Shown: in pieces, positions 13,864-34,315 of the stretch | How positions within the stretch are numbered: position 1 is the first letter of the stretch | How the letters are laid out: every line of letters starts with the position of its first letter | Assembly: GCA_019670725.1 (NCBI GenBank) | Contig: AP024629.1 | Coordinates: 124,001-188,000, forward strand | DNA: 64,000 nt | Source: Alphaproteobacteria bacterium SO-S41 | GTDB lineage: Bacteria > Pseudomonadota > Alphaproteobacteria > Micropepsales > Micropepsaceae | Direction: 5' to 3' | Notes under the pieces: model-generated | Database searches by the model: none | What the model was told of the DNA's origin: nothing | What the model saw: the letters and a program-made list of their open reading frames with translations, nothing else | Program-made: the position numbers and the translations under genes

Positions 13864-15864
13864 GTGTCCGCCGCTCCCTCCTCCGCCGAGATCCGCATCA
13901 CCCTGCCCGACGGCAGCGTGCGGACCACGACTGCGGGCTCGACGGGCGCGGATCTCGCGGCGTCGATCGGCCCCGGCCTCGCCAAGGCGGCGCTCGCCGT
14001 CGAGGTCGACGGCAAACTGCGCGATCTCGACTGGCCGCTCGCCGGCGACGCAAGCCTGCGCATCATCACGCGCAAGGACGAGGCCGACGCGCTCGATCTC
14101 ATCCGCCACGATACCGCGCACCTGATGGCGCAGGCGGTGCAGGAGCTCTTCCCCGGCACGCAGGTGACGATCGGCCCGAATATCGAGGACGGCTTCTTCT
14201 ACGACTTCGCGCGCGACGAGCCCTTCACGACCGACGATCTGCCGAAAATCGAAGCCCGCATGCACGAGCTGGTGAAGCAGAACCTGCCCACCAAGCGGAC
14301 GCTCATGCCCCGCGCCGAGGCGATCGCCCATTTCGAGGCGATGGGCGAAAAGTACAAGGCCGAGATCATCCGCGACCTCCCCGAGAGCGAGGACATCTCG
14401 GTCTACTACCACGGCAACTGGCACGACCTCTGCCGCGGCCCGCATCTCCCTTCCACGGGCGCGATCGGCTCGGCCTTCAAGCTGACCAAGATCTCCGGCG
14501 CCTATTGGCGGGGCGATGCCAAGAACGCCCAGCTCCAGCGCATCTACGGCACGGCGTGGCGCGACGAGAAGGAGCTGAAGGCCTATCTCACGCGCCTCGA
14601 AGAGGCCGAGAAGCGCGACCATCGCAAGATCGGCAAGGAGATGGATCTCTTCCATCTCCAGGCCGAGGCGCATGGCTCCGTCTTCTGGCACCCCAACGGC
14701 TTCGTCATCTATCGCGCGCTGGAAGCCTATATGCGCCGCCGCCTCGATGCGGCCGGCTATCTGGAGGTGAAGACGCCCCAGATCATGGACGCCCGCCAGT
14801 GGGAGCAGTCGGGCCACTGGGGCAAGTATCGCGAGAACATGTTCGTCATCCCCGACGAGATCCCCAACACCGAGGACGAGGGCGCGCTCGTCTCCGGCAA
14901 GGGCGACTGGATGGCGCTGAAGCCGATGAACTGCCCCGGCCATATCCTGATCTTCCGCCAGGGCATCAAGAGCTATCGCGACCTGCCGCTGCGCCTCGCG
15001 GAAATGGGCTGCTGCCACCGCAACGAGCCGCACGGCGCGCTGCACGGCCTCATGCGCGTGCGCCAGTTCACGCAGGACGACGCCCACATCTTCTGCCGCG
15101 AGGACCAGATCGTCGACGAGGTCGCGAAATTCTGCGACCTGCTCGACGTCATCTACAAGGATCTCGGTTTTTCCGAATACGCGATCAAGCTGGCGCTGCG
15201 GCCCGAGAAGCGCTTCGGCACCGACGAGATGTGGGACTGGTCGGAGCAGGCGCTGCGCGACGCCGTCGCCGCGACGGGCCGCGCGACGCCGGAATGGGGC
15301 TGGGCGGAACTCCCCGGCGAAGGCGCGTTCTATGCGCCCAAGCTGGAATTCCACCTGACCGATGCGATCGGGCGGACGTGGCAGGTCGGCACGATCCAGA
15401 CGGACACCGTGCTGCCCGAGCGGCTGGATGCGAGCTATATCGGCGAGGACAGCGCCAAGCATCGCCCGATCATGCTGCACCGCGCGATCCTCGGCTCCTA
15501 CGAGCGCTTCATCGGCATCCTGATCGAGCATTACGCCGGCAAGTTCCCGCTCTGGCTGGCGCCGGTGCAGGCGGTGGTCTCGACGATCGTCAGCGACGCG
15601 GACGATTACGCCAAGTCGGCGATGGCGAAGCTGCGCTCGGCGGGCATCCGCGTGGCGATCGATCTCAGGAACGAGAAGATCAACTACAAGGTCCGCGAAC
15701 ACTCGCTGGCCAAGGTGCCCATCATGCTCATCGCCGGCCGCCGCGAAGCCGAGGAAGGCAAGATCACCATCCGCCGTCTCGGCGTCGAAAAACAGGAAAC
15801 GATGACCCTGGATGCGGCCATCGAACTCCTGCGCACCGAAGCGCTGCCCCCGGACCTCAGATAG
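13864..15864 (+). CDS. thrS: threonyl-tRNA synthetase
   Basis: 666 residues from GTG 13864, with GAAAGGA 8-9 bp upstream. Domains in order: TGS (about 8-70, [14 protein letters not shown]), the editing/SAD domain with the [11 protein letters not shown] (HxxxH) and [12 protein letters not shown] motifs, the class II core with [39 protein letters not shown], motif 3 [13 protein letters not shown], and the C-terminal anticodon-binding domain. It charges tRNA(Thr) and edits Ser-tRNA(Thr). The full length matches the family. A strong hairpin follows the stop at 15888-15916. Confidence 0.97.
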
Positions 15865-16027: not shown

Positions 16028-16960
16028 ATGACAATTCCCGACTATCAAACACTTATGCTGCCGTTGCTTCGGATTTCTGCCGAAGGCGAAACGCGCATTC
16101 CAGACATTGAGGGGCGTATAGCTGACGAATTTTCGCTGACTCTGAGCGAACGTGACGAGCTACTGCCCAGCGGGCGTCAAAAGATCCTTCACAATCGCAT
16201 CCATTGGTCCAAATTCTACTTGGCCAGAGCCGGCCTAATCGACCAGCCCAGCCGAGGGCGTTTTGTCATCAGTCAGGCCGGACGAGAATTGCTGAGCAAG
16301 AATCCAACACGAATCGACAACCGCTTATTGATGACCATTCCTGCGTTCCAGGAATTTTATCAGTCTTCCCGAACGAGTTCGACGGACAATACAAGAGTCG
16401 CTTCCGAACCGGCACTCGACGTTTTGGAGACCACCACACCAGAAGAGCAGATTGAGTCAGCGAGCCAAGCCCTATCGACGGCACTCGGAGTCGAATTGCT
16501 CGAACGCATAAGAAACAACAGCCCCTCGTTCTTCGAACAAGTCATCGTCAGCCTTCTGGTGGGAATGGGTTACGGCGGTTCGCATCGAAACGCCGCCCAG
16601 CAACTCGGAAGATCTGGTGACGGTGGAGTTGATGGCGTCATCAACGAGGATGTTTTGGGCTTAGATAGAGTCTACGTGCAAGCAAAGCGATACGCCGAAG
16701 GCTCGACCGTAGGACGCCCGGAAGTTCAGGCTTTCGTGGGCAGCCTTGTTGGGCTAGGCGCAACCAAAGGCGTGTTTGTAACGACCAGTTCGTTTAGCGG
16801 ACACGCTATTGAGTATGCGCGCCATCTATCTCAGCGGGTTGTACTGATTGACGGACTTCGTTTAACCGCCTTGATGATGCAGCATGGTGTAGGCGTCAGG
16901 GTAACGAGGACCATCGAATTCAAGCGGGTAGATGAGGACTTCTTCAACGAAGAAGAATAG
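16028..16960 (+). CDS. Mrr-type type IV restriction endonuclease
   Basis: 310 residues, with GAGGG upstream of the ATG. The N-terminal winged-helix Mrr_N domain (about 1-100: MTIPDYQTLMLPLLRISAEG ... NRIHWSKFYLARAGLI) is followed by the Mrr_cat nuclease domain from about residue 170: FFEQVIVSLLVGMGYGG, GRSGDGGVDGVI and VQAKRY, i.e. the D-(x)n-QAK catalytic motif of PD-(D/E)XK enzymes. Such enzymes cut modified DNA. Its base composition is visibly more AT-rich than every neighbour and CTCCCC-type palindromes lie on both sides, which suggests horizontal acquisition. No partner methylase is present, as expected for type IV. Confidence 0.88.
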   Translation: MTIPDYQTLMLPLLRISAEGETRIPDIEGRIADEFSLTLSERDELLPSGRQKILHNRIHWSKFYLARAGLIDQPSRGRFVISQAGRELLSKNPTRIDNRLLMTIPAFQEFYQSSRTSSTDNTRVASEPALDVLETTTPEEQIESASQALSTALGVELLERIRNNSPSFFEQVIVSLLVGMGYGGSHRNAAQQLGRSGDGGVDGVINEDVLGLDRVYVQAKRYAEGSTVGRPEVQAFVGSLVGLGATKGVFVTTSSFSGHAIEYARHLSQRVVLIDGLRLTALMMQHGVGVRVTRTIEFKRVDEDFFNEEE

Positions 16961-18352: not shown

Positions 18353-18460
18353 CCGGGAACCATCCGCTATTTCGCGGGTTGTCCCCTATTGGTCCCGTAT
18401 GCATCGGGCCCATCGGGGTTTAGTAAAGCGGTCGTGCGCCGGGAGAGGGTTTCGAGGCGT

Positions 18461-19006
18461 ATGAGCGAGCGGCGTTTCTGGCTGCGGGACAAGACCGCGC
18501 CATCGCATCGGGCATTGGAGGGCATGGTCGGCCCGCTCGACACGATTCCGGCTTACAGCCATTTTGTCGAAGGCCTCTATCGCGGCCGGCAACCCGTGGA
18601 AAGCTGGCTCAAAAACCTCGCCTGGCCCGAACTCTTCAAAGACTGGCGGCCGATCCTGATCGGTCCAGCGCTTGCCAAGGACCTCGCCGATCTCGACCGG
18701 CCCCTTCCACCGCTCGCCCCCTTCACCCCGCCCGGCGCGACGGTCAGCGACCTCCTCGGCGTCCTCTATGTCCTGGAAGGCTCCAGCCTCGGCGCCCGGG
18801 TCGTGCTGCGCCAGGCGCTGGCGCTCGGTCTTGATGCCGGGTTTGGCGCGCGGCATCTGGCGCTTCAGGCCTCGGACGGCGGCTGGCCGCATTTTGTGCG
18901 CCTGCTGGACAGCGCCGACCATCCCGACATGGAGCGGGTCGGCCGCGCCGCGGTCGCCACCTTCGACGCCATGCATCAGGCGATGAGCGGCCATGTCGTC
19001 GCCTGA
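18461..19006 (+). CDS. bphO: biliverdin-producing heme oxygenase
   Basis: 181 residues from ATG 18461 (MSERRFWLRDKTAPSHRALE). His16 is placed as the proximal heme ligand; LGVLYVLEGSSLGARVVL is the distal-helix motif with the glycine-rich kink, as in BphO/HmuO proteins. It oxidises heme to biliverdin IX-alpha, carbon monoxide and iron. It overlaps the bacteriophytochrome gene by 14 bp, so it supplies that photoreceptor's chromophore. A longer in-frame start at 18389 is unlikely because the extension has no family match. Confidence 0.92.
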   Translation: MSERRFWLRDKTAPSHRALEGMVGPLDTIPAYSHFVEGLYRGRQPVESWLKNLAWPELFKDWRPILIGPALAKDLADLDRPLPPLAPFTPPGATVSDLLGVLYVLEGSSLGARVVLRQALALGLDAGFGARHLALQASDGGWPHFVRLLDSADHPDMERVGRAAVATFDAMHQAMSGHVVA

Positions 19007-21548
19007 GCCCGTCGATCTCACCAATTGCGACCGCGAGCCGATCCATATTCCCGGCGGCATCCAGCCGCACGGCACGCTGCTCGTTTGCGACCCCACCTGC
19101 ACCACGCTGCTGCGCCATGCCGCCAACGCGCCGGCGCTACTGGGCCTTGGTGATGCGGCGCTGAACGGGTCGCCGCTGGTGGCGGTACTCGGCCCCGACG
19201 TCGTCCACACCATCCGCAACGCCCTCGCACGCTCGCAGGACCCTTCCCGTCCCGCGCTCATCTTCGCGCTGCAGGCGGGGCCTCAGAACCGCGCCTTCGA
19301 CGTCTCGGTCCACCGCTTCAAGGGCAATGCGATCCTGGAATTCGAACCGGTGCCGGACAGCGATCACGGCTCGGCGCTGGAGCTGACGCGGACGCTGACG
19401 GGGCGGCTCGGCCGTATCTCCAATATCGAGGATCTCGTCCATGCCGCGGCGCGGCTGACCCGCAGCCTGCTTGGCTATGACCGCGTGATGATCTACCGCT
19501 TCGGCCATGACGGCGCGGGTCAGGTGATCGCGGAATCGCGCCAGGCGACACTGGAGCCGTTCATCGGGCAATTTTTTCCGGCCAGCGATATCCCGCAACA
19601 GGCGCGGGCGCTGTATCTGAAAAACACGATCCGCGTCATTTCCGATGCGAACTTCCAGCCCGTGCCCCTCGTGCCCGTGCTCGATGCCGGCGGCGAGCCG
19701 CTGGACCTCTCGCACGCGCATCTCCGCAGCGTCTCGCCGATCCATTGCGAGTATCTGCGCAATATGAGCGTCGCGGCCTCGATGTCGGTCTCGATCATCG
19801 TCGGCGGCGAACTCTGGGGCCTCATCGCCTGCCACCACTACAAGCCGCGGGTCCTCAGCCTCGTCAAACGCATGGCGGCCGAGATGTTCGGCGAGTTCTT
19901 CTCGTTGCATCTCGAAGCGCTGACCGTGCGCCACAAGCTCGATTCCGCTTCGCGCGCTCGTCATACGCTGGACCGTCTGCTGCGTCAGGCCTCGCGCGAG
20001 ACGGATGCGCTGTCGCTGCTGCAGGATCATCTCGGTGATCTCATGCAGCTGCTGCCCTGCGACGGCATAGGCCTGTTCGTCGAGGGCTCATGGCACGCGC
20101 GCGGCACGACGCCGCCAGCGCAAGCCATCCCCGCGCTTGCGACCTTTGCCGGCGCGCGGGCCGACGGACGAGTCTGGGCGACCAATACCCTGTCGACCGA
20201 TTTCGAGGCGGCGGAGGCCTATCGCGCCGAGGCCTCGGGCGTGCTCGCCATCCCGTTGTCGCAACTGCCGCGCGACTATCTTTTCTTCTTCCGCCGCGAG
20301 GTCATCCACACCGTGGAATGGGGCGGCAACCCCGAAAAGACCTACGAGACCGGTCCGCTCGGCGACCGGTTGACGCCGCGCAAGAGCTTCGCGATCTGGA
20401 AACAGACTGTCGAGCGCCAGTCCGCGCCCTGGACCGAAGCCGATCGCGAGATCGCGGAAGCGGCGCGCGGCGCGCTGGTCGAAACCGTGCTGCGCCAGAA
20501 CGAACTCCTCGCCGACGAGCGCAGCAAGGCGGATCTCCGCCAGAAGATGCTGAACGAGGAGCTGAACCACCGGGTCAAGAACATCCTCGCCCTCATCAAG
20601 TCGCTGGTCTCGCAGGATGTCGCGCCCGATCGGTCGCTCGACGATTACGTCCGCTCGCTGAAGGGCCGCATCCAGGCGCTCTCCGTCGCCCATGACCAGG
20701 TCGTGCGCAGCGATGGTGGGGGCCGGCTGGAGGATTTGCTGAAGGCCGAACTCCTGCCTTACCGCGAGGCGGCCTCTGTCGCGCTGGGCGGGCCGCCGGT
20801 CGCGCTCGACGCGCGCGCCTTCTCGGTCATGGCATTGGTGCTGCACGAGCTGGCGACCAACGCCGCGAAGTATGGCGCGCTGTCGGCCGCCGCGGGACGC
20901 CTCACCGTGACCTGGCAGATGACCGCCGACGGCGCCTGCGCGATCGATTGGCGCGAGGCCGGCGGTCCCGCCGTGCGCCCACCCTCGCGCCAGGGCTTCG
21001 GCTCAGTTCTCATCAACCGCAGCGTTCCCTTCGATCTCGGCGGTGAAAGCAATGTTACCTACGGCGCCGAAGGCGTCAGCGCCCGTATCGTCATCCCCGC
21101 GCGCTTCGTTTCGCTCCGCGGCGCCGACGCCGTCTCCGCTGAGGTGAAACGCGCCGATACCCTCGCATCCGACCGCAGCCTCGCGGGTCTCTCGATCCTG
21201 CTCGTCGAGGACCAATTGCTCATCGCGCTCGATGCGGAAACCGCACTGCAAGCGCACGGCGTTGTGCGGGTGGAAACTGCGGGTTCGACGCCGGATGCGC
21301 TGCGCCGCCTTGCCGCGTTCACCCCGGATGCGGCGGTGCTCGACGTCAATCTCGGCGCCCACACCTCGATCCCCGTCGCCGAGGAACTGGCGCGGCGCGG
21401 CATCCCCTTCATCTTCGCGACCGGCTACGGCGACAGCATCACCATCCCCGCCAACTTCCGGAACCGCCCCGTCGCCCGCAAACCCTATGACGGCGAGACG
21501 CTCGTGCACCTGCTCTCCGTCGCCCTGGCGGGACGCCCTCCGTCTTGA
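18993..21548 (+). CDS. bphP: bacteriophytochrome with HWE histidine kinase and C-terminal receiver
   Basis: 851 residues. PAS-2 (about 15-120) with the biliverdin-binding Cys12 in LTNCDREPIHIPG; GAF (about 140-310) with PASDIP (196-201) and HLRSVSPIHCEYLRNM; PHY (about 325-500) with the PRKSF tongue motif at 462-466; HWE-type kinase with phospho-acceptor His526 in NEELNHRVKN, N box HELATNAAKYGALS (618-631) and W653-R-E; receiver domain (about 732-845) with acidic pocket ED, Asp784 and Lys830. It is a red/far-red light sensor kinase; the HWE plus fused REC architecture suggests phosphotransfer inside the protein or a phosphate sink. The output partner is not in the window. Confidence 0.95.
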   Translation: MSSPEPVDLTNCDREPIHIPGGIQPHGTLLVCDPTCTTLLRHAANAPALLGLGDAALNGSPLVAVLGPDVVHTIRNALARSQDPSRPALIFALQAGPQNRAFDVSVHRFKGNAILEFEPVPDSDHGSALELTRTLTGRLGRISNIEDLVHAAARLTRSLLGYDRVMIYRFGHDGAGQVIAESRQATLEPFIGQFFPASDIPQQARALYLKNTIRVISDANFQPVPLVPVLDAGGEPLDLSHAHLRSVSPIHCEYLRNMSVAASMSVSIIVGGELWGLIACHHYKPRVLSLVKRMAAEMFGEFFSLHLEALTVRHKLDSASRARHTLDRLLRQASRETDALSLLQDHLGDLMQLLPCDGIGLFVEGSWHARGTTPPAQAIPALATFAGARADGRVWATNTLSTDFEAAEAYRAEASGVLAIPLSQLPRDYLFFFRREVIHTVEWGGNPEKTYETGPLGDRLTPRKSFAIWKQTVERQSAPWTEADREIAEAARGALVETVLRQNELLADERSKADLRQKMLNEELNHRVKNILALIKSLVSQDVAPDRSLDDYVRSLKGRIQALSVAHDQVVRSDGGGRLEDLLKAELLPYREAASVALGGPPVALDARAFSVMALVLHELATNAAKYGALSAAAGRLTVTWQMTADGACAIDWREAGGPAVRPPSRQGFGSVLINRSVPFDLGGESNVTYGAEGVSARIVIPARFVSLRGADAVSAEVKRADTLASDRSLAGLSILLVEDQLLIALDAETALQAHGVVRVETAGSTPDALRRLAAFTPDAAVLDVNLGAHTSIPVAEELARRGIPFIFATGYGDSITIPANFRNRPVARKPYDGETLVHLLSVALAGRPPS

Positions 21549-21620: not shown

Positions 21621-22721
21621 ATGAGCACGTTCACGGCCGAGGACCGCGCCGCCATGGCCGAGTCCGTCCGCCGCCTGCTGGCCGACAAGGGCGACGAGGC
21701 CGCGCTCCGCCGCGCGATGGAGACCCCGTCCGGCTACGACGCCGCTTTGTGGGCCGAACTCGTCGAACTCGGCGTCGCCGGCCTCATCATCGACCCTGCC
21801 TATGACGGCCTTGGCGGCGGCCCGGTCGAACTCGAACTCATCATGGAAGAAGCGGGCGCTGCCCTCCTCGCCGCACCCCTCTTCGCCAGCGGCGTCATGG
21901 CCGCCGCGCTGATTTCCGCCAGCGGCGATGAAGGCGCGAAGGAACGCCTGCTGCCCGGCCTCGCCCGCGGCCGCATCGCGACCGTCGCCCTCACCGGCGA
22001 CGCCGGCACCTGGACGCCGGACGGCGTCACGGTCGGCGCGCATTCCCACGGCGCCCGCGCCTTTCTCGACGGCACCGCCTCGTTCGTGCTGCACGGCGCC
22101 GCTGCGGACGTCCTTCTCGTCGTCGCTCGGGTCGATGGCGGCTTCGGCATCTTTGAGGTCGCCAAGGGCACGCCGGGCCTTGAAATCACGACCCTCCCCA
22201 GCTTCGACCGCACGCTGCGCCTCACGAAGCTCGACTTCCATCACGTGCCCGCCACGCGGCTCGGCATCGCCGGCTGGGATGCAGTCGAAGCCATGCTGAA
22301 GATCGCGCTCGTGGCGCTGGCCGGCGAACAGGCCGGCGGCGCGCGGCGCGTGCTCGACATGACCGTGCAGTACGCCAAGACCCGCATCCAGTTCGGCCGC
22401 GCAATCGGCAGCTTCCAGGCGATCAAGCACATGGCCGCCGATCTGCTGCTGGAAGCGGAGAACGCAACATCAGCCGCGCGCCATGCTGCGCAGCAATTGG
22501 CCGGCGGCGGCGAGGCCGACGAGGCCGTGTATCTCGCCGCCTTCGCCTGCGCCGACGCCTATTCGAAGATCGCGGCCGACGCGATCCAGATGCATGGCGG
22601 CATCGCCTTCACTTGGGCGCATCCCGCCCATCTCTATCTCCGCCGCGCGCGGGCGGATGCGCAATTGCTGGGCGCGCCGCCCTATCACCGCGAACGCTAC
22701 CTCCAGGCGATGGGAGCTTAA
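21621..22721 (+). CDS. acyl-CoA dehydrogenase family protein (short partner subunit)
   Basis: 366 residues, with GGGAGAGG before the ATG. It has the family C-terminal motif YAKTRIQFGRAIGSFQAIKHMAAD and ends KIAADAIQMHGGIAFTWAHP...YLRRARAD. The middle beta domain is reduced: the substrate/FAD motif seen in its partner (YSEPGAGSDL) is absent. Such short subunits (for example FadE28/ChsE-type) pair with a full subunit in alpha2beta2 enzymes that oxidise bulky CoA thioesters. The partner begins 4 bp downstream, which supports this reading. Substrate unknown. Confidence 0.85.
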   Translation: MSTFTAEDRAAMAESVRRLLADKGDEAALRRAMETPSGYDAALWAELVELGVAGLIIDPAYDGLGGGPVELELIMEEAGAALLAAPLFASGVMAAALISASGDEGAKERLLPGLARGRIATVALTGDAGTWTPDGVTVGAHSHGARAFLDGTASFVLHGAAADVLLVVARVDGGFGIFEVAKGTPGLEITTLPSFDRTLRLTKLDFHHVPATRLGIAGWDAVEAMLKIALVALAGEQAGGARRVLDMTVQYAKTRIQFGRAIGSFQAIKHMAADLLLEAENATSAARHAAQQLAGGGEADEAVYLAAFACADAYSKIAADAIQMHGGIAFTWAHPAHLYLRRARADAQLLGAPPYHRERYLQAMGA

Positions 22722-22725
22722 GGCC

Positions 22726-23913
22726 ATGACCGACGAAGAGCTCCGCACCGAAGTCCGCGCCTGGTTGGCGGCCAACTGGAAAAACGACCTCCCCGCTCGC
22801 GCCGACCAATGGACGGTCGGACCCGAGCAGCGCGCGTGGCTGGCGAAAGTCGTCGAGGCCCGCTGGGCCGTGAACCGTTGGCCGTCAGAATGGTGCGGCC
22901 GCGATCTCAGCGACGCGCAGGCGAAGATCATCGAACGCGAATTCGCCGCCGTGAAGGCGCCGGGCGCGGGCCAAGACCGCACCCATCTCTACGCCATCAC
23001 GGCGCTGACCTTCGGCACCGATGTCATGAAGGCGGCGCTGCTGAAGGGCATGCTGACCGGCGAGATCAATATGTGCCTGCTCTATTCCGAGCCGGGCGCG
23101 GGCTCTGATCTTGCGGGCATCCGCACCCGCGCGACGCGCGACGGCGAGGAATTCGTCGTCAACGGCCAGAAGGTCTGGACGTCGGGCGCCGCCACCGCCG
23201 ACTACGGCATGCTGATCGCGCGCACCGACTGGGATGTGCCCAAGCATAACGGCATCTCGTTCTTCTTCCTGTCGATGAAGCAGCCGGGCGTCGAAGTGCG
23301 CCCGCTGCGCCAAGTGACCGACGAGTCCCATTTCAACGAGGTCTTCATCACCGACGCCCGGGTCTCCGCCGACTTCCTGCTCGGCGGCCTCAACAATGGC
23401 TGGCGCGTGCTGCAAACCGCGCTCGCCTATGAGCGCTCGGTCATGGGCGACGGCGCGCGCGGGCCCCGCCGCGCGGGCGACGGGGCGGCGAACGATCTCG
23501 TCGCGCTCGCGCGCGAGGCCGGGAAGCTGGACGATCCGGTCCTGCGCCAGGACCTCGCGAAGGTGCTGAGCTATCGCCGGCTGAACGCGCTCAACAATGC
23601 CCGCGCCAAGGCTGACCTCGCGCAAGGCACCTCGTCCTCGATCATGTCGCTCGGCAAGCTCGCTATGTCGCGCATCCTCCATGAGGAGGCGCGCCTCCGC
23701 ACCGCGCTGCTCGGCGCAGGTTCCTTGCTGGACGGCGAAGCCTTTCCGCGCGCCGACGATGCGAACTTCCTCACGCTCAACGCCTATTTCACCTCGATCG
23801 GTGGGGGTACCGACCAGATCCAGCGCAACATTATCGGCGAGCGCGTCCTCAGCCTCCCCAAGGAGCCCGAGATCGACCGCACCATCCCCTTCCGCGATGT
23901 GCGGGCGGGCTAG
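22726..23913 (+). CDS. acyl-CoA dehydrogenase family protein (FAD-binding partner subunit)
   Basis: 395 residues from ATG 22726. It carries NMCLLYSEPGAGSDLAGIRTRA and NGQKVWTSGA for FAD and substrate binding, and at the C-terminus SIGGGTDQIQRNIIGERVLSLP, the FAD-diphosphate motif. The position usually occupied by the Glu in GGxxEIQRN is Asp-Gln here, as in several heteromeric acyl-CoA dehydrogenases where the base lies elsewhere. It is translationally linked to the shorter subunit upstream (4-bp gap) and to the halohydrin dehalogenase-like gene downstream (3-bp gap). Confidence 0.88.
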   Translation: MTDEELRTEVRAWLAANWKNDLPARADQWTVGPEQRAWLAKVVEARWAVNRWPSEWCGRDLSDAQAKIIEREFAAVKAPGAGQDRTHLYAITALTFGTDVMKAALLKGMLTGEINMCLLYSEPGAGSDLAGIRTRATRDGEEFVVNGQKVWTSGAATADYGMLIARTDWDVPKHNGISFFFLSMKQPGVEVRPLRQVTDESHFNEVFITDARVSADFLLGGLNNGWRVLQTALAYERSVMGDGARGPRRAGDGAANDLVALAREAGKLDDPVLRQDLAKVLSYRRLNALNNARAKADLAQGTSSSIMSLGKLAMSRILHEEARLRTALLGAGSLLDGEAFPRADDANFLTLNAYFTSIGGGTDQIQRNIIGERVLSLPKEPEIDRTIPFRDVRAG

Positions 23914-23916
23914 GCG

Positions 23917-24606
23917 ATGACCGCCGTCGCCCTCCTCACCGACGCCGCCTCCTTCATCGGCCCCGCCGTCGCGGCGCGACTGCGCGCCGGTGGCGGACGC
24001 GTAGTCGAGGCGGATGCGTCGTTTGCCGACAACGGCGACGCAATCGCCCAAACCTCGCCCGAGGAGACCGTTGCCAAAGCCGCCGCACTCGGCGGGCGGC
24101 TGGACGCGCTGGTGATCTCCGCCGCCTATCCCGCACCGCGCACACCGGCGGAGTCTCTCTCCGCCGAAGCCACCCGGCCCTTCTTCGAAAAGCTGGCGAT
24201 CGAGCCGCTGGCGCTCGCCGCCGCTGCGATCCCGCATCTGAAACGCGCCGGTGGCGGGCGGATCGTGTTCGTGACCTCGGCCGGACCGCTGGGCGGGATT
24301 CCCGGCTTCGGCGCCTATGCGGCGGCGCGCTCGGCGATCACCGGGGCGGTCAAAAGCCTCGCGTTGGAACTCGCGCCCGACAACATCTCGGTCAACGCCG
24401 TCGCGCCCAACTACATCCAGACCGAGATGTACTATCCCAAGGCCTGGCTGGAGGACGCCCGCAAGCGCGACAGGCTGCTCGCCCGCATCCCCATGGGGCG
24501 GCTCGGCGAGGCCGAGGAGGCGGCGGAGGCTGTGGCCCTGCTGGCACAAGGGCGCGCAAGCTTCATCACCGGGCAGATTTTGAACATCTCCGGCGGGTCC
24601 TCGTGA
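23917..24606 (+). CDS. halohydrin dehalogenase candidate (SDR superfamily)
   Basis: 229 residues. It is an SDR fold but lacks both hallmarks of an NAD(P)H oxidoreductase: the glycine-rich TGxxxGxG is replaced by T8-x4-F13-x-G15, and the catalytic Lys is Arg (Y134-AAA-R138). Ser121 lies exactly 13 residues before Tyr134. These two signatures, T-x4-F-x-G and S-x12-Y-x3-R, are the published fingerprint of halohydrin dehalogenases, which expel halide from vicinal haloalcohols to form epoxides without cofactor. DASFAD near residue 33 and PNY at 164-166 also resemble HheA/HheC. The substrate is unknown; a degenerate SDR with another role is the alternative. It is the last gene of the acyl-CoA dehydrogenase operon. 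Confidence 0.78.
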   Translation: MTAVALLTDAASFIGPAVAARLRAGGGRVVEADASFADNGDAIAQTSPEETVAKAAALGGRLDALVISAAYPAPRTPAESLSAEATRPFFEKLAIEPLALAAAAIPHLKRAGGGRIVFVTSAGPLGGIPGFGAYAAARSAITGAVKSLALELAPDNISVNAVAPNYIQTEMYYPKAWLEDARKRDRLLARIPMGRLGEAEEAAEAVALLAQGRASFITGQILNISGGSS

Positions 24607-24815: not shown

Positions 24816-25361
24816 CCGCCTCGTAGACCCAGCTTTGCCGGCCCGCCCCCCAAGAACGACGACGGTCCTCGCATCAACGGCGACATCACCGCTTTCGAAG
24901 TCCTCGTCATCGATGAGGCCGGCGAAAAACGCGGCGTGATGAGCCGGCGCGATGCGCTGCGCCTCGCCGAAGAGGAAGGCGTCGACCTGGTCGAGGTCTC
25001 GCCGATGGGCAAGCCGCCGGTCTGCCGCTTGATGGACTACGGCAAGTTCAAATACGAGCAGCAGAAAAAGGCCAACGAAGCCCGCAAGAAGCAGAAGATC
25101 ATCGAGATCAAGGAGATCAAGATGCGTCCGGGCATCGACGATCACGACTACGATGTGAAGATGCGCTCGGCGATCAAGTTCTTCGGCGAAGGCGACAAGG
25201 TGAAGTTCACGCTCCGCTTCCGCGGCCGCGAGATGGTGCACCAGTATCTCGGCATGGACGTGCTGGAGAAGATCAAGAAGCAGGTCGGCGAGATCGCCAA
25301 GGTCGAGCAGGAGCCGCGCCTTGAAGGCCGCCAGATGCAGATGGTGATGGCGCCGCGCTAA
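24813..25361 (+). CDS. infC: translation initiation factor IF-3
   Basis: 182 residues if translation begins at CTG 24813, giving the normal IF-3 length. The N-domain has [30 protein letters not shown] and [20 protein letters not shown]; the C-domain has [20 protein letters not shown] and [14 protein letters not shown]-3 binds the 30S subunit and rejects non-canonical start codons, and infC itself classically starts at a rare codon so that IF-3 represses its own translation; the CTG here fits that logic. A terminator follows at 25385. Confidence 0.95.
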
Positions 25362-25431: not shown

Positions 25432-25815
25432 TTACTGCTCGAGCGAGGCGTTCTGGACCTTGCCTTCCAGCAGGGCGACATCGGTCGTCGCCTGATGGAA
25501 CTGGGCGGTCGCGTTCATGACCATCTCCTCGGCTTCCGCGACGGCCTGCTGCTTGTCGGCCTCGGTCAGGGGCGCACAGTCTGAGTTCGAGGCGACCTCG
25601 CCGCAACGCAGCGTGTCGCCGTCCATGCTGTAGATGCCCTCGAAATGGCCGGCTTTCAGCTCTTTCAGGTACGAGGTCGCGTCCGCCAGATCCATCTTGG
25701 CGCCGCTGAGGTCGTTGCGGGCTTCCTTCAGCGTCTCGCCAGCCGATGCGACGCCACCGAGCAGCGCCAGAGCGGCAGCGACGAGGAGGGTGCGGGTGTG
25801 GGCGAAGCGGGGCAT
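25432..25815 (-). CDS. small secreted coiled-coil protein, CG-C motif family
   Basis: 127 residues from ATG 25815. Signal peptide FAHTRTLLVAAALALLGGVASAG, then a helical mature chain (ETLKEARNDLSGAKMDLADATSYLKEL). The segment DGDTLRCGEVASNSDCAPLTEADKQQ matches, in spacing of the two cysteines and in the following L/Y-T-x-x-DK, the segments of the proteins at 27875-28390 (KCGDPNRYPGCIPYTDAEKA) and 28394-29161 (KCGDVSDHAGCIALTAEDKA). I therefore place it in one paralogous family of unknown function; the cysteines likely form a disulfide in the periplasm. Confidence 0.72.
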   Translation of the reverse strand: MPRFAHTRTLLVAAALALLGGVASAGETLKEARNDLSGAKMDLADATSYLKELKAGHFEGIYSMDGDTLRCGEVASNSDCAPLTEADKQQAVAEAEEMVMNATAQFHQATTDVALLEGKVQNASLEQ

Positions 25816-25935
25816 GTCCGTGACCTGTGATGAAACTGACATTCCGATAACGCTCGACCGCGGTTTCGGATGCATCGTAGGTCACACTTTATTAGGAAGA
25901 TTACGGCGGGTTCATGTTCGCCCGGTGATCCGGGC

Positions 25936-27874: not shown

Positions 27875-28390
27875 TCAGCGCGCCGACGCCAGCTCGCGTT
27901 CGGCTTCGGCGAGACCGCGCCGCGCTTCTTCCAGGCCGGCTTCGGCTTCCTTCAGCGACTGGCGCATCTCGGCGACCATCTCGGCCTTTTCCGCATCCGT
28001 ATAGGGAATGCAGCCGGGATAGCGGTTGGGGTCGCCGCATTTGACGACCTTGTCGTCCTCGATCGTCATGGTGCGCGAGAAATCGCCCGCTTCCATCTGC
28101 GCTAGGTCGCGCTTGGATTCCTCGAGGCCCTTCTCGGCGTCCTTCAGTCCCTCTCTCGCATCCGCCAGGCCGTCGACGGCATCGCGGTGTACTTCGATGG
28201 CGTCCCGGCGGGCCTCTTCGGCCGCGGCTTTCGCTTCCTCTGCAGCAGCCGCAGCTTCTTCCGCCGCGCCGTCATCGTGCGAGGCGCCGCGCTGGGTGAT
28301 GTGCACGGGACCTTTGGGCGTCTCGGCAAAGGCCGCGCCGCTCATCAAGGCCGCAACCACAAGACCGAGACAGAGGCTGCGGGCGATCAT
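27875..28390 (-). CDS. secreted coiled-coil protein, CG-C motif family
   Basis: 171 residues. Signal peptide MIARSLCLGLVVAALMSGAAFA, then the block KGPVHITQRG shared with the next gene upstream (KGPVHITGRG). Two long Ala/Glu helices (EEAAAAAEEAKAAAEEARRD and a C-terminal LKEAEAGLEEARRGLAEAER) flank the two-cysteine segment KCGDPNRYPGCIPYTDAEKA. It starts 3 bp after the stop of the 28394-29161 gene, so the two are a tandem duplicated pair. No known family; periplasmic location is inferred. Confidence 0.72.
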   Translation of the reverse strand: MIARSLCLGLVVAALMSGAAFAETPKGPVHITQRGASHDDGAAEEAAAAAEEAKAAAEEARRDAIEVHRDAVDGLADAREGLKDAEKGLEESKRDLAQMEAGDFSRTMTIEDDKVVKCGDPNRYPGCIPYTDAEKAEMVAEMRQSLKEAEAGLEEARRGLAEAERELASAR

Positions 28391-28393
28391 GGG

Positions 28394-29161
28394 TTACTCC
28401 GCATCGGCACGCGCGGCGGCGCTGAGGCCGGCCTGCGCGGCTTCCATCGCTTCGCCGGCGGCCTGCAGGGCCGCGCGCAGCTCTTTCGTCAGCCGCGCCT
28501 TGTCCTCGGCGGTCAGCGCGATGCAGCCGGCATGGTCCGACACGTCGCCGCATTTCATCACGCCCTTCGAGACGATGACGATGTCGGAGAAATCGCCCAT
28601 CTCGACCGACGCGAGCTGGGCTGCGGAGTGCATGATGTCGAGCTGCGCATCCGAGACATTGTGGAGCGCGCCGTCGATCTCGATCTGGATATTGCCGGTG
28701 ACGGCGTGCACCTCGACCATCGCGCGGGCGACGATCGCGCCCATCTCGCGATGCGCGGCACGGGCGATGTCGCGGGCCTTCCGCGCTTCGCGGCGGGCGG
28801 TGTCGCGCGCCTCGCGGGCCTCGGCGCGCGCGCCCTCGGCGGCTTCACGGGCCGCGGCGCGCGCTTCGGCAATGGCTTCACGGGCCTGGTCGGCCGCCTC
28901 GCGCGCGGCTTCCCTCGCCGCTTCGCGGCCTTCCTCGATCGCTTCTATGGCGCTTTGGCGGGCTTCGCGCATGGCCTCGCGGGCCTCCTCACGGCCCTCG
29001 CCGTGATCGTCCATGGCATCCCATTCGCTGGCGCTGATCAGCTCGACGCCGCGGCCGGTGATGTGGACGGGACCCTTGACCTCGGACGCGGCGACGCTGC
29101 CGGCGAGCAAGGCGGAAACGGCGACGGAAAGACCGAAAAGACGCAGGCGCGCGGCGGACAT
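28394..29161 (-). CDS. secreted coiled-coil protein, CG-C motif family, long form
   Basis: 255 residues from ATG 29161, with GGGGGAA upstream. Signal peptide ending VAA-SE, KGPVHITGRG, then roughly 85 residues (about 50-135) of very regular Ala-Arg-Glu sequence (EAREAMREARQSAIEAIEEG and so on) that must form a long single helix or coiled coil. A short globular part (GNIQIEIDGALHNVSDAQLD) precedes the cysteine motif KCGDVSDHAGCIALTAEDKA and a last helix. The DGALHNVSDAQLDIM segment resembles DUF-type beta hairpins but I cannot name it. It is the first gene of the pair. Confidence 0.72.
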   Translation of the reverse strand: MSAARLRLFGLSVAVSALLAGSVAASEVKGPVHITGRGVELISASEWDAMDDHGEGREEAREAMREARQSAIEAIEEGREAAREAAREAADQAREAIAEARAAAREAAEGARAEAREARDTARREARKARDIARAAHREMGAIVARAMVEVHAVTGNIQIEIDGALHNVSDAQLDIMHSAAQLASVEMGDFSDIVIVSKGVMKCGDVSDHAGCIALTAEDKARLTKELRAALQAAGEAMEAAQAGLSAAARADAE

Positions 29162-29259
29162 GGCGGATTCCCCCAAGTGGAGCCCCATCACGCCATGGTT
29201 TCCCCCGCTTCGCGTGCAACGCACGTCACACTGCGTGCGAGTTTCGTGACAGGCGCCCC

Positions 29260-32476: not shown

Positions 32477-34315
32477 ATGAGCGAGACGTCATGCGGCCCG
32501 GCGGCCTTCCGCTACCGCGCCTTCATCAGCTACAGCCATCGCGACGCCGCCTGGGCGGACTGGCTGCACAAGGCCGTCGAACGCTACCGGGTGCCCCGCG
32601 CGCTGGTCGGCAAGACGACGGCGCAGGGCATCGTGCCGGCCCGGCTGACCCCGCTCTTCCGCGACCGCGAGGAACTGCCCGCGGCGACCGACCTCTCGAC
32701 CGTCATCACCGCGGCGCTGGAGAGCGCCTCGCATCTCGTGGTGCTCTGCTCGCCCCGCGCGGCACAGTCCAAATGGGTGAACGAGGAAATCCTCGCCTTC
32801 AAGCGGCTCGGCCGCGCCGACCGCATCGTCGCGATCATTGTCGAGGGCGAACCGAACAGCGGCGATCCCGCGACCGAATGCTTCCCGCCCGCCCTCAAGG
32901 TGACACTGGAGGGCACACCCACCGAACCCGTTGCCGCCGACGCGCGCGAGAGCGGTGACGGCAAGGACAACGCCAAGCTGAAGCTGATCGCCGGCCTGCT
33001 CGGCGTCGGGCTGGACGATTTAAAGCGCCGCGAAGCCCAGGCCCAACGCCGCCGCACTCTCTTCGCCTACGGCCTCACCGGCGTCTTCGCCTTGCTCGCC
33101 GTCGCCGCCGTCTTCTTCGCCTTCCGCGCCGAGGAACAACGCGCCCGGGCCGAGGCGGGGGAGACCGAGGCCCTCGCCCAGCGCGACCGCGCCAATGCCG
33201 CCGTCGGTGCTGCGCGCGACCAGGCCGAGTTCATGGTCACGGAATTCGCGGGCAAATTGCGCACCGCGCCCGGCGCACAGTTCGGCGTCCTCAGCGAGAT
33301 CCTGAAGTCTTCGATCGGCTTGCTTGAGAATCTGGGCAAGACCAGCCCGCCGGGCACGGCCGAATTGGGTGTTCTGGCCCTCGGGCGGCTCGCGCTCGCC
33401 AATGCAATGAACCATCTCGGCGATTTCGACGGCGCGGCCGGCGAGATCGACCGCGTTCTGGCGATCCAGGACGACATCGCCCCGCGGCCCGATGCGCCGG
33501 ACACGCTGACGGTCGAACGCGCGCTGGCGCTGGATCTGCGCGGCGATGCCAGGCGGCGCAGCGCGCCGGACAAGGCGCTGGCCGACTACCAGACCGCGCG
33601 GGCGCTGCGCGCCAAGGCATTGGAGGCTCACCCCCGCGACCTCACCTATCTGGAGATGATGGTGCGGAGCGATGAAAAGATCGCCTGGGCGCACATCCTG
33701 CTGAACGACGCCAAGCAGTCGGCCGTCGCGTACCAAGCCGCGCTCGACGGCGCGAAGGCGCTGGCGGGCTCGTGGGCCACGGAGGACTGGCCCCAGCGCC
33801 TGCTGGTGCCGCGCATCACCTATGGCTTCGGCTATCTCCACGCGCTGATCGGCGAGAAGCTGACGGCGGAAGACCAGCTTTTTACCGCGATGGAGACTCT
33901 GAAGGGGCTTTGGCAGGAGTTCCCGCGAAATACCGAGATCTATGCCGAGCTCGGCACCGCCACGGACCGCTATGCGTCCCATCTGGAAGCGGACGGCGAT
34001 CCGGTTGCAGAGACCGCTTACAAGCGGGCGCTGGGGGTCGCGGACGAGCTGCACGACCTCGACCCCGGCAATTTCCAGTGGAGCGAAGACCTCTATCGCC
34101 GCCACGCCATGCTGTCGGTCATGGCGGCCGACGCCAAGCGGCCGGGGCTCGCGCTCTACCATGTGCGCCGGGCGATTGGCGTGCTGGAGGAAAACCCCGG
34201 CCTTACCGAACGGAGCCCCGAATGGCGCGAGGATTTGGCGGGGTTTCGCACCTTCGAGCAGAAATTGATCGCGGAGGGCGCGACCGAAACGCCGCCGGAG
34301 ACGAAGCAGCAGTAA
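32477..34315 (+). CDS. TIR domain - transmembrane - TPR-like protein
   Basis: 612 residues. An N-terminal TIR domain (about 10-150) begins FRYRAFISYSHRDAAWADWL, includes FRDREELPAATDLS and has S98-K-W100-V-N-E-E104, where Glu104 occupies the position of the NADase glutamate. A charged segment and one membrane helix (about 195-217, LFAYGLTGVFALLAVAAVFF) lead to a helical C-terminal half (230-590) with TPR-like helix pairs, likely in the periplasm because the TIR side has positive residues (KRREAQAQRRR). Function unknown: it could be a signalling adaptor, NADase or scaffold. Two further TIR-TM proteins occur at 60-63 kb. Confidence 0.85.
   Translation: MSETSCGPAAFRYRAFISYSHRDAAWADWLHKAVERYRVPRALVGKTTAQGIVPARLTPLFRDREELPAATDLSTVITAALESASHLVVLCSPRAAQSKWVNEEILAFKRLGRADRIVAIIVEGEPNSGDPATECFPPALKVTLEGTPTEPVAADARESGDGKDNAKLKLIAGLLGVGLDDLKRREAQAQRRRTLFAYGLTGVFALLAVAAVFFAFRAEEQRARAEAGETEALAQRDRANAAVGAARDQAEFMVTEFAGKLRTAPGAQFGVLSEILKSSIGLLENLGKTSPPGTAELGVLALGRLALANAMNHLGDFDGAAGEIDRVLAIQDDIAPRPDAPDTLTVERALALDLRGDARRRSAPDKALADYQTARALRAKALEAHPRDLTYLEMMVRSDEKIAWAHILLNDAKQSAVAYQAALDGAKALAGSWATEDWPQRLLVPRITYGFGYLHALIGEKLTAEDQLFTAMETLKGLWQEFPRNTEIYAELGTATDRYASHLEADGDPVAETAYKRALGVADELHDLDPGNFQWSEDLYRRHAMLSVMAADAKRPGLALYHVRRAIGVLEENPGLTERSPEWREDLAGFRTFEQKLIAEGATETPPETKQQ

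Follow-up and report, generated by a model that had tools for sequence, protein, structure and literature searches.

A gene on the forward strand (23917..24606) of the analysed window, a stretch of 64,000 nucleotides from an alphaproteobacterial genome, probably encodes a cofactor-independent enzyme of the halohydrin dehalogenase (HHDH) family, a reading to which we give a probability of about 0.8. The gene runs from an ATG at 23917 to a stop codon at 24604-24606 and its 229-residue product was characterized from the open reading frame (ORF), matches to PDB sequences, trees and an AlphaFold2 model. The motifs, the descent, the predicted fold, the conservation of catalytic residues and the loss of the cofactor motif were all observed here, and the chemistry would be that of HheC, by homology. 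It is well supported that the gene represents a new branch of the known HHDH family and not a new kind of enzyme. The preliminary description had proposed a candidate HHDH within the short-chain dehydrogenase/reductase (SDR) fold, a proposal that is well supported by motifs, profile search and trees, and more weakly by structure.

The two published HHDH motifs, T-x4-F/Y-x-G and S-x12-Y-x3-R (PMC4989007, PMC11976700), are both present in exact form in the translation, as had been stated beforehand. Motif 1, T8-x4-F13-x-G15 (TDAASFIG, residues 8-15; 23938..23961, +), was located by motif match and in a 36-sequence alignment, and is expected to form the nucleophile pocket, at the site where SDRs have their cofactor glycine motif. 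Motif 2, S121-x12-Y134-x3-R138 (24277..24330, +), contains the catalytic Ser-Tyr-Arg. According to PMC4989007, 19 diverse motif-positive enzymes were confirmed to be active. A pattern scan of the window protein for the classical SDR motifs T/S-G/A-x3-G/A-x-G and S-x10-14-Y-x3-K gave no match, in agreement with the claimed lack of an NAD(P)H-binding glycine motif, and NNAG is absent from the translation. Two further resemblances proposed earlier were also found: DASFAD, which begins at D33 and is literally identical to a stretch of HheA, and P164-N165-Y166 (24406..24414, +). The latter corresponds in HheC to a loop (P175 to L178) that, according to PMC11976700, is part of the lining of the nucleophile pocket. 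Two other features separate the window protein from some of the solved HHDHs: a shortened connection after strand 2 (residues 33-41; 24013..24039, +), seen in the alignments and in the strands of the model, and S68-A69 (24118..24123, +), aligned where the A and C types carry "ND". The short form and the missing ND were considered as an argument against HHDH membership, which was dropped because HheD2, HheD8 and HheB show both traits.

We then asked how often these motifs occur in the other SDR-like ORFs encoded by this genome. A genome search returned 50 SDR-like places besides the window gene, 47 of which were taken as separate loci (one of the other three sits within L004). For each locus, we retained the ORF that blastp matched best with the window protein, which provided 46 ORFs, L075 having no match. 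Motif 2 occurs in none of these 46 ORFs. The motif-1 string is found somewhere in four of them, all of which also carry the SDR glycine motif. Both HHDH motifs together are thus found in none of the 46 other scored ORFs, while the classical glycine-rich motif and the S-x10-14-Y-x3-K motif are each present in 36.

We then searched the PDB sequences for relatives. With the single sequence as query, 6a41 was the top match (1.5e-35), followed by the HheA entries and then by HheD2 and HheC mixed with SDRs; DHRS4 and other SDRs outscored HheC. We also used a profile of eight sequences, including the window protein itself. With this profile, which addressed a check proposed in the preliminary description, the top 12 PDB chains were all dehalogenases, from 6a41 (213.6 bits) through the HheC and HheA entries to 7b73 and 8xxb (HheD8, 143.3 bits), and the best classical SDR reached 124.5 bits. 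HheB and HheG-type chains ranked under several classical SDRs in the same search. The entries 7b73 and 8xxb are HheD2 and HheD8 by their titles and are labelled "Short-chain dehydrogenase/reductase SDR" in the PDB sequence file, so that searches by name miss them. The window protein shares 32-38% identity with the seven solved HHDH sequences compared.

Phylogenetic trees were built from 23 HHDH-like sequences (seven derived from the PDB, the other 16 belonging to the window clade or to related Alphaproteobacteria) and 34 SDRs of the genome itself. Of 40 fetched SDR places, 27 entered the tree after a filter on classical motifs and length, so that this set leans to classical SDRs. From the HHDH-like set, L037 (partial), L029 (a near copy of L025), L023, L025, L031, L032 and L033 were dropped. 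The 23 HHDH rows, which include the solved types A, B, C and D, are split from the 34 SDRs at 100/99. The same split was recovered at 96/88 after removal of the columns of motif 1, the ND region, motif 2 and the PNY loop. The B and D types share a branch of their own. The sister of the window clade (13 rows, 100/99) is a group made of the A and C types, 6a41 and L034-L036 (98/90). The window clade therefore lies within a group bounded by the solved B/D and A/C types, in a tree for which no root was inferred and from which HheE, HheF and HheG sequences are absent. A tree that put the protein firmly with NAD(P)H-binding SDRs had been named in the preliminary description as the outcome that would speak against it; the window protein groups instead with the solved HHDHs. 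Common descent with the verified HHDH types A-D is well supported.

An AlphaFold2 model computed from the 36-sequence alignment has a pLDDT of 94.0 and a pTM of 0.92. In this model, the strand at residues 28-33 leads straight into the strand at residues 42-44, with no helix between them. In the SDR fold, the segment that is lacking here forms a helix. Foldseek placed 6a41 and two HheA entries on top, with human DHRS4 fourth. By VIA-align, ranks 1-8 were all dehalogenases, with 6a41 first (Z 32.0, rmsd 1.8, 229 residues aligned) and the HheC entries at Z 30.0-30.9 (rmsd 1.7-1.8), and SDRs followed closely, the first classical one at Z 29.9 (rmsd 1.9). As this SDR is about one Z unit or less under every HheC row, structure alone separates the two groups weakly. 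With an earlier model (pLDDT 85.9), SDRs were tied with dehalogenases by VIA-align Z. The structure prediction suggested beforehand thus supports an overall HHDH fold for the modelled protein, though the fold alone is not decisive.

Conservation was examined in the alignment of 36 sequences, window protein included, from which L023, L029, L031, L037 and L113 were left out. Six positions are invariant in 36/36 sequences: S121, Y134, R138, N165, Y172 and P174. Position 166 is Y or F in all 36, T8 is found in all 35 sequences having this position, and position 13 is always aromatic (F in 31, Y in three, W in two). Tryptophan at this position was observed in L103:6304-7038 (TFASHWAG) and L104:6240-7019 (TSATHWAG). 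Position 15 is more variable, with G in 25 sequences, N in nine and A in two. The alanine occurs in two of the five genus members (L017 and L018). The asparagine occurs in all 12 Hyphomonadaceae-type sequences sampled, nine of which are rows of the alignment; in these loci (L020-L027, L029 and L031-L033), F-A-N-P replaces F-x-G. At the ND site, the window clade shows SA, AA, PA and similar pairs; Asp80 is important in HheC. Pairwise dN/dS of the window gene against the other four genus members is 0.19-0.26, values that are rough since 43-54% of synonymous sites differ, and the window gene is under constraint. According to PMC11976700, HheC loses activity drastically upon the G14A substitution; the members with Ala or Asn are of interest for this reason. 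Since close relatives lack the motif-1 glycine, the window branch may be changing function.

The gene was found in all five genomes of the genus. At the family level, a match at E <= 1e-30 was obtained for 8 of 96 genomes, and a search at the level of the order returned this same set of 96. In the class Alphaproteobacteria, where we searched genomes at least 80% complete and scored at most seven candidates per genome, 26 of 386 have a match at E <= 1e-40, including the genome under study and G011, of the same genus. These enzymes had been described as rare, a term that should be softened in view of these 26 genomes. A scan of genome contigs gave 22 loci, 12 of them Hyphomonadaceae-type with Asn at position 15, as well as one partial match in Myxococcota. 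Among viral contigs, 60 stretches fit the pattern and none of them is a relative. The 44 plasmid records are all below 60% identity, the first being a "haloalcohol dehalogenase" of Microbacterium (34.7%). The literature searched (one library) pointed to no earlier account of the window clade.

Finally, we looked at the genes surrounding the candidate. In the window, it lies between thrS (13864..15864, +) and infC (24936..25361, +; its true start may be further upstream). It directly follows two genes that match acyl-CoA dehydrogenases in Pfam: dehydrogenase 1 (21621..22721, +), with an IpdE2/PimD-like NCBIfam match far below cut-off, and dehydrogenase 2 (22702..23913, +), with a PimC-like match also far below cut-off, which ends 3 bases 5' of the gene. 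The downstream neighbour infC is constant, as it adjoins the gene at six loci, i.e. in the five genus genomes and at L019 (genome G010, of another genus). At L019, thrS, the gene and infC follow one another and no further gene was called in the intervals. This arrangement suggests that the gene was the first to enter the thrS-infC gap, further genes arriving afterwards. In the window, the interval between thrS and infC also holds an Mrr-type restriction endonuclease (16028-16960) and, at 18389-21548, a small ORF with a weak heme oxygenase match below cut-off (E 0.007) and, just 3' of it, a bacteriophytochrome (PAS-GAF-PHY, HWE kinase and response regulator). Beyond infC, three charged, Ala-rich proteins with signal-like starts are encoded on the reverse strand (25432-25875, 27875-28390 and 28394-29224); they have in common a C-terminal "(K/R)CG(D/E)...C...T..(D/E)K" stretch and no Pfam match, and the first has homologues in four other genus genomes (cluster c6). 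Further along, 32477-34315 encodes a TIR-domain protein of 612 aa, with TIR_2 and ThsB_TIR above cut-off and TPR below.

At the level of the class, we compared the neighbours of 22 loci (18 of the 24 matching genomes from outside the genus, plus L028 and L034-L036), with crude ORF calling over up to about 6-8 kb per side. The commonest neighbour cluster across these 22 loci (recJ) was present in five. Ten class-level neighbours were scanned and include MobA-like/XdhC, SIR2, alpha-amylase-family, ilvD and NDH-type proteins. Many Hyphomonadaceae-type relatives are located in a recurring cluster of TetR, RND, acyl-CoA dehydrogenase and APH+DUF6285 genes. In the surroundings of the Hyphomonadaceae-type gene we found genes for a TetR regulator, a hybrid histidine kinase, HlyD, an RND pump, an APH+DUF6285 protein, an acyl-CoA dehydrogenase and ketoacyl synthase III, not all of them in every locus. 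APH+DUF6285 has a parallel in the levulinate (lva) pathway.

The gene had been described as the last of an acyl-CoA dehydrogenase operon that would offer a metabolic setting, and an involvement in acyl-CoA catabolism, as a step together with the two upstream dehydrogenases, was considered on this basis. The three genes are on the same strand, the gap between the last two is only 3 bases in the window, and they occur together in three of the five genus members (the window, L016 and L030). However, this gap reaches about 620 bases in L030, and at L017, L018 and L019 the gene sits beside infC with the dehydrogenase pair absent. An orthologue of dehydrogenase 2 (82-83%) was found in two of the five other genomes searched; G013, G014 and G010, whose assemblies are 92, 88 and 74% complete, have only paralogues at 38-39%, and the locus of the gene has other neighbours there. 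As the pair is missing from two of the five genus genomes and from G010, where the gene is retained, and as infC is the constant neighbour, the operon was rejected as a setting, and a role in acyl-CoA catabolism is improbable. The possibility of an ordinary NAD(P)H-dependent SDR oxidoreductase draws on the shared fold and on Pfam, in which general SDR families match the window protein above their cut-offs (adh_short_C2, 4.5e-36); among 208 SDR-like NCBIfam models, the 25 best are all below their cut-offs. With the cofactor glycine motif, S-x10-14-Y-x3-K and NNAG all absent, and given the position in the tree, it is the least credible of the alternatives and can practically be set aside.

Hardly more credible is a catalytically dead SDR subunit that would act with a partner protein, as in BbsCD, of which the BbsC half is degenerate. 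The loss of the cofactor motif and the presence of BbsCD (7pcs) among the structural matches would fit such a subunit, but no SDR gene directly adjoins the window gene, and a dead site would not need the Ser, Tyr and Arg that are invariant in 36/36 sequences, whose identities with the window protein span 36-83%. A stronger competitor, which overlaps with the main reading, is an HHDH-derived enzyme that has kept the Ser-Tyr-Arg chemistry and acts on another natural substrate or leaving group, model halohydrins being poor substrates. The replacement of the motif-1 glycine by Ala in L017 and L018 and by Asn in the Hyphomonadaceae-type rows, the loss of ND and of 12 residues after strand 2, and the proximity of the Hyphomonadaceae-type gene to the hybrid histidine kinase, TetR, RND pump, acyl-CoA dehydrogenase and APH+DUF6285 genes all point in this direction. 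Conversely, the window protein keeps the full motif 1, and verified B and D HHDHs are also short and without ND. We regard this alternative as a genuine possibility with odds somewhat short of even. More tentatively, the window clade could be an HHDH subtype beyond A-G, present in several little-known alphaproteobacterial lineages and leaving halide chemistry: it has lost ND and 12 residues behind strand 2, and sister lineages have exchanged the motif-1 glycine for Ala or Asn with Ser-Tyr-Arg unchanged. In its native reaction, the HHDH mechanism would serve a different leaving group; in Hyphomonadaceae, the enzyme would take part in a regulated response together with an RND pump and acyl-CoA dehydrogenase/APH genes.

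As a cofactor-independent member of the HHDH family, the enzyme would use Ser121 to hold the hydroxyl of a vicinal halohydrin or a similar beta-substituted alcohol, and Tyr134, with its pKa lowered by Arg138, would take the proton. The resulting alkoxide would displace the neighbouring leaving group to give an epoxide, and in the reverse direction a small anion would open the epoxide. Motif 1 (T8, F13 and G15) and the P164-N165-Y166-I167 loop would form the anion pocket, at the site that receives the nicotinamide cofactor in classical SDRs. The neighbouring genes do not identify the natural substrate; our guess would be a stand-alone role, perhaps in handling reactive epoxides or halohydrins. 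HHDHs are useful for the synthesis of chiral alcohols and their natural roles are largely open. The window member is complete, present in all five genus genomes and matched just by generic SDR models in Pfam and NCBIfam. The two-motif filter as published would overlook the Asn and Ala members, and the lineage offers a natural series, from an intact motif 1 to the Ala and Asn variants, that would allow the roles of the glycine and of the ND element to be tested.

Among the known systems, the closest to the window protein by both sequence and structure is 6a41 (a "dehalogenation enzyme" in the PDB; 37.5% identity), which carries both HHDH motifs but differs by 12 extra residues after strand 2 and by the presence of ND; no paper describing 6A41 was found in the literature searched. 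HheA and HheA2 (1zmo, 4z9f) share the motifs and the DASFAD stretch and belong to the sister clade (38.0% identity to 1zmo), but have 12 more residues after strand 2, ND and two extra residues near position 75. HheD2, HheD8 (7b73, 8xxb) and HheB (4zd6) resemble the window protein in being short after strand 2 and without ND, and HheD2 also shares with it a PAP.T stretch; they differ by their low identity (32-34%) and their position on a separate branch at 100/99. The B and D types are verified HHDHs according to PMC4989007. HheC (1pwx, 5kwe), the template for the mechanism, shares the motifs and is close in structure (5kwe: Z 30.9, rmsd 1.7, 32.7% identity), but is 12 residues longer after strand 2 and has ND. 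It also has, as reported in PMC4989007, a C-terminal extension containing Trp249, which has no counterpart in the window protein. Whereas the HheC gene shares an operon with an epoxide hydrolase gene according to PMC11976700, the sole match to the epoxide hydrolase N-terminal family (EHN) in the genome studied here lies about 0.96 Mb from the window gene.
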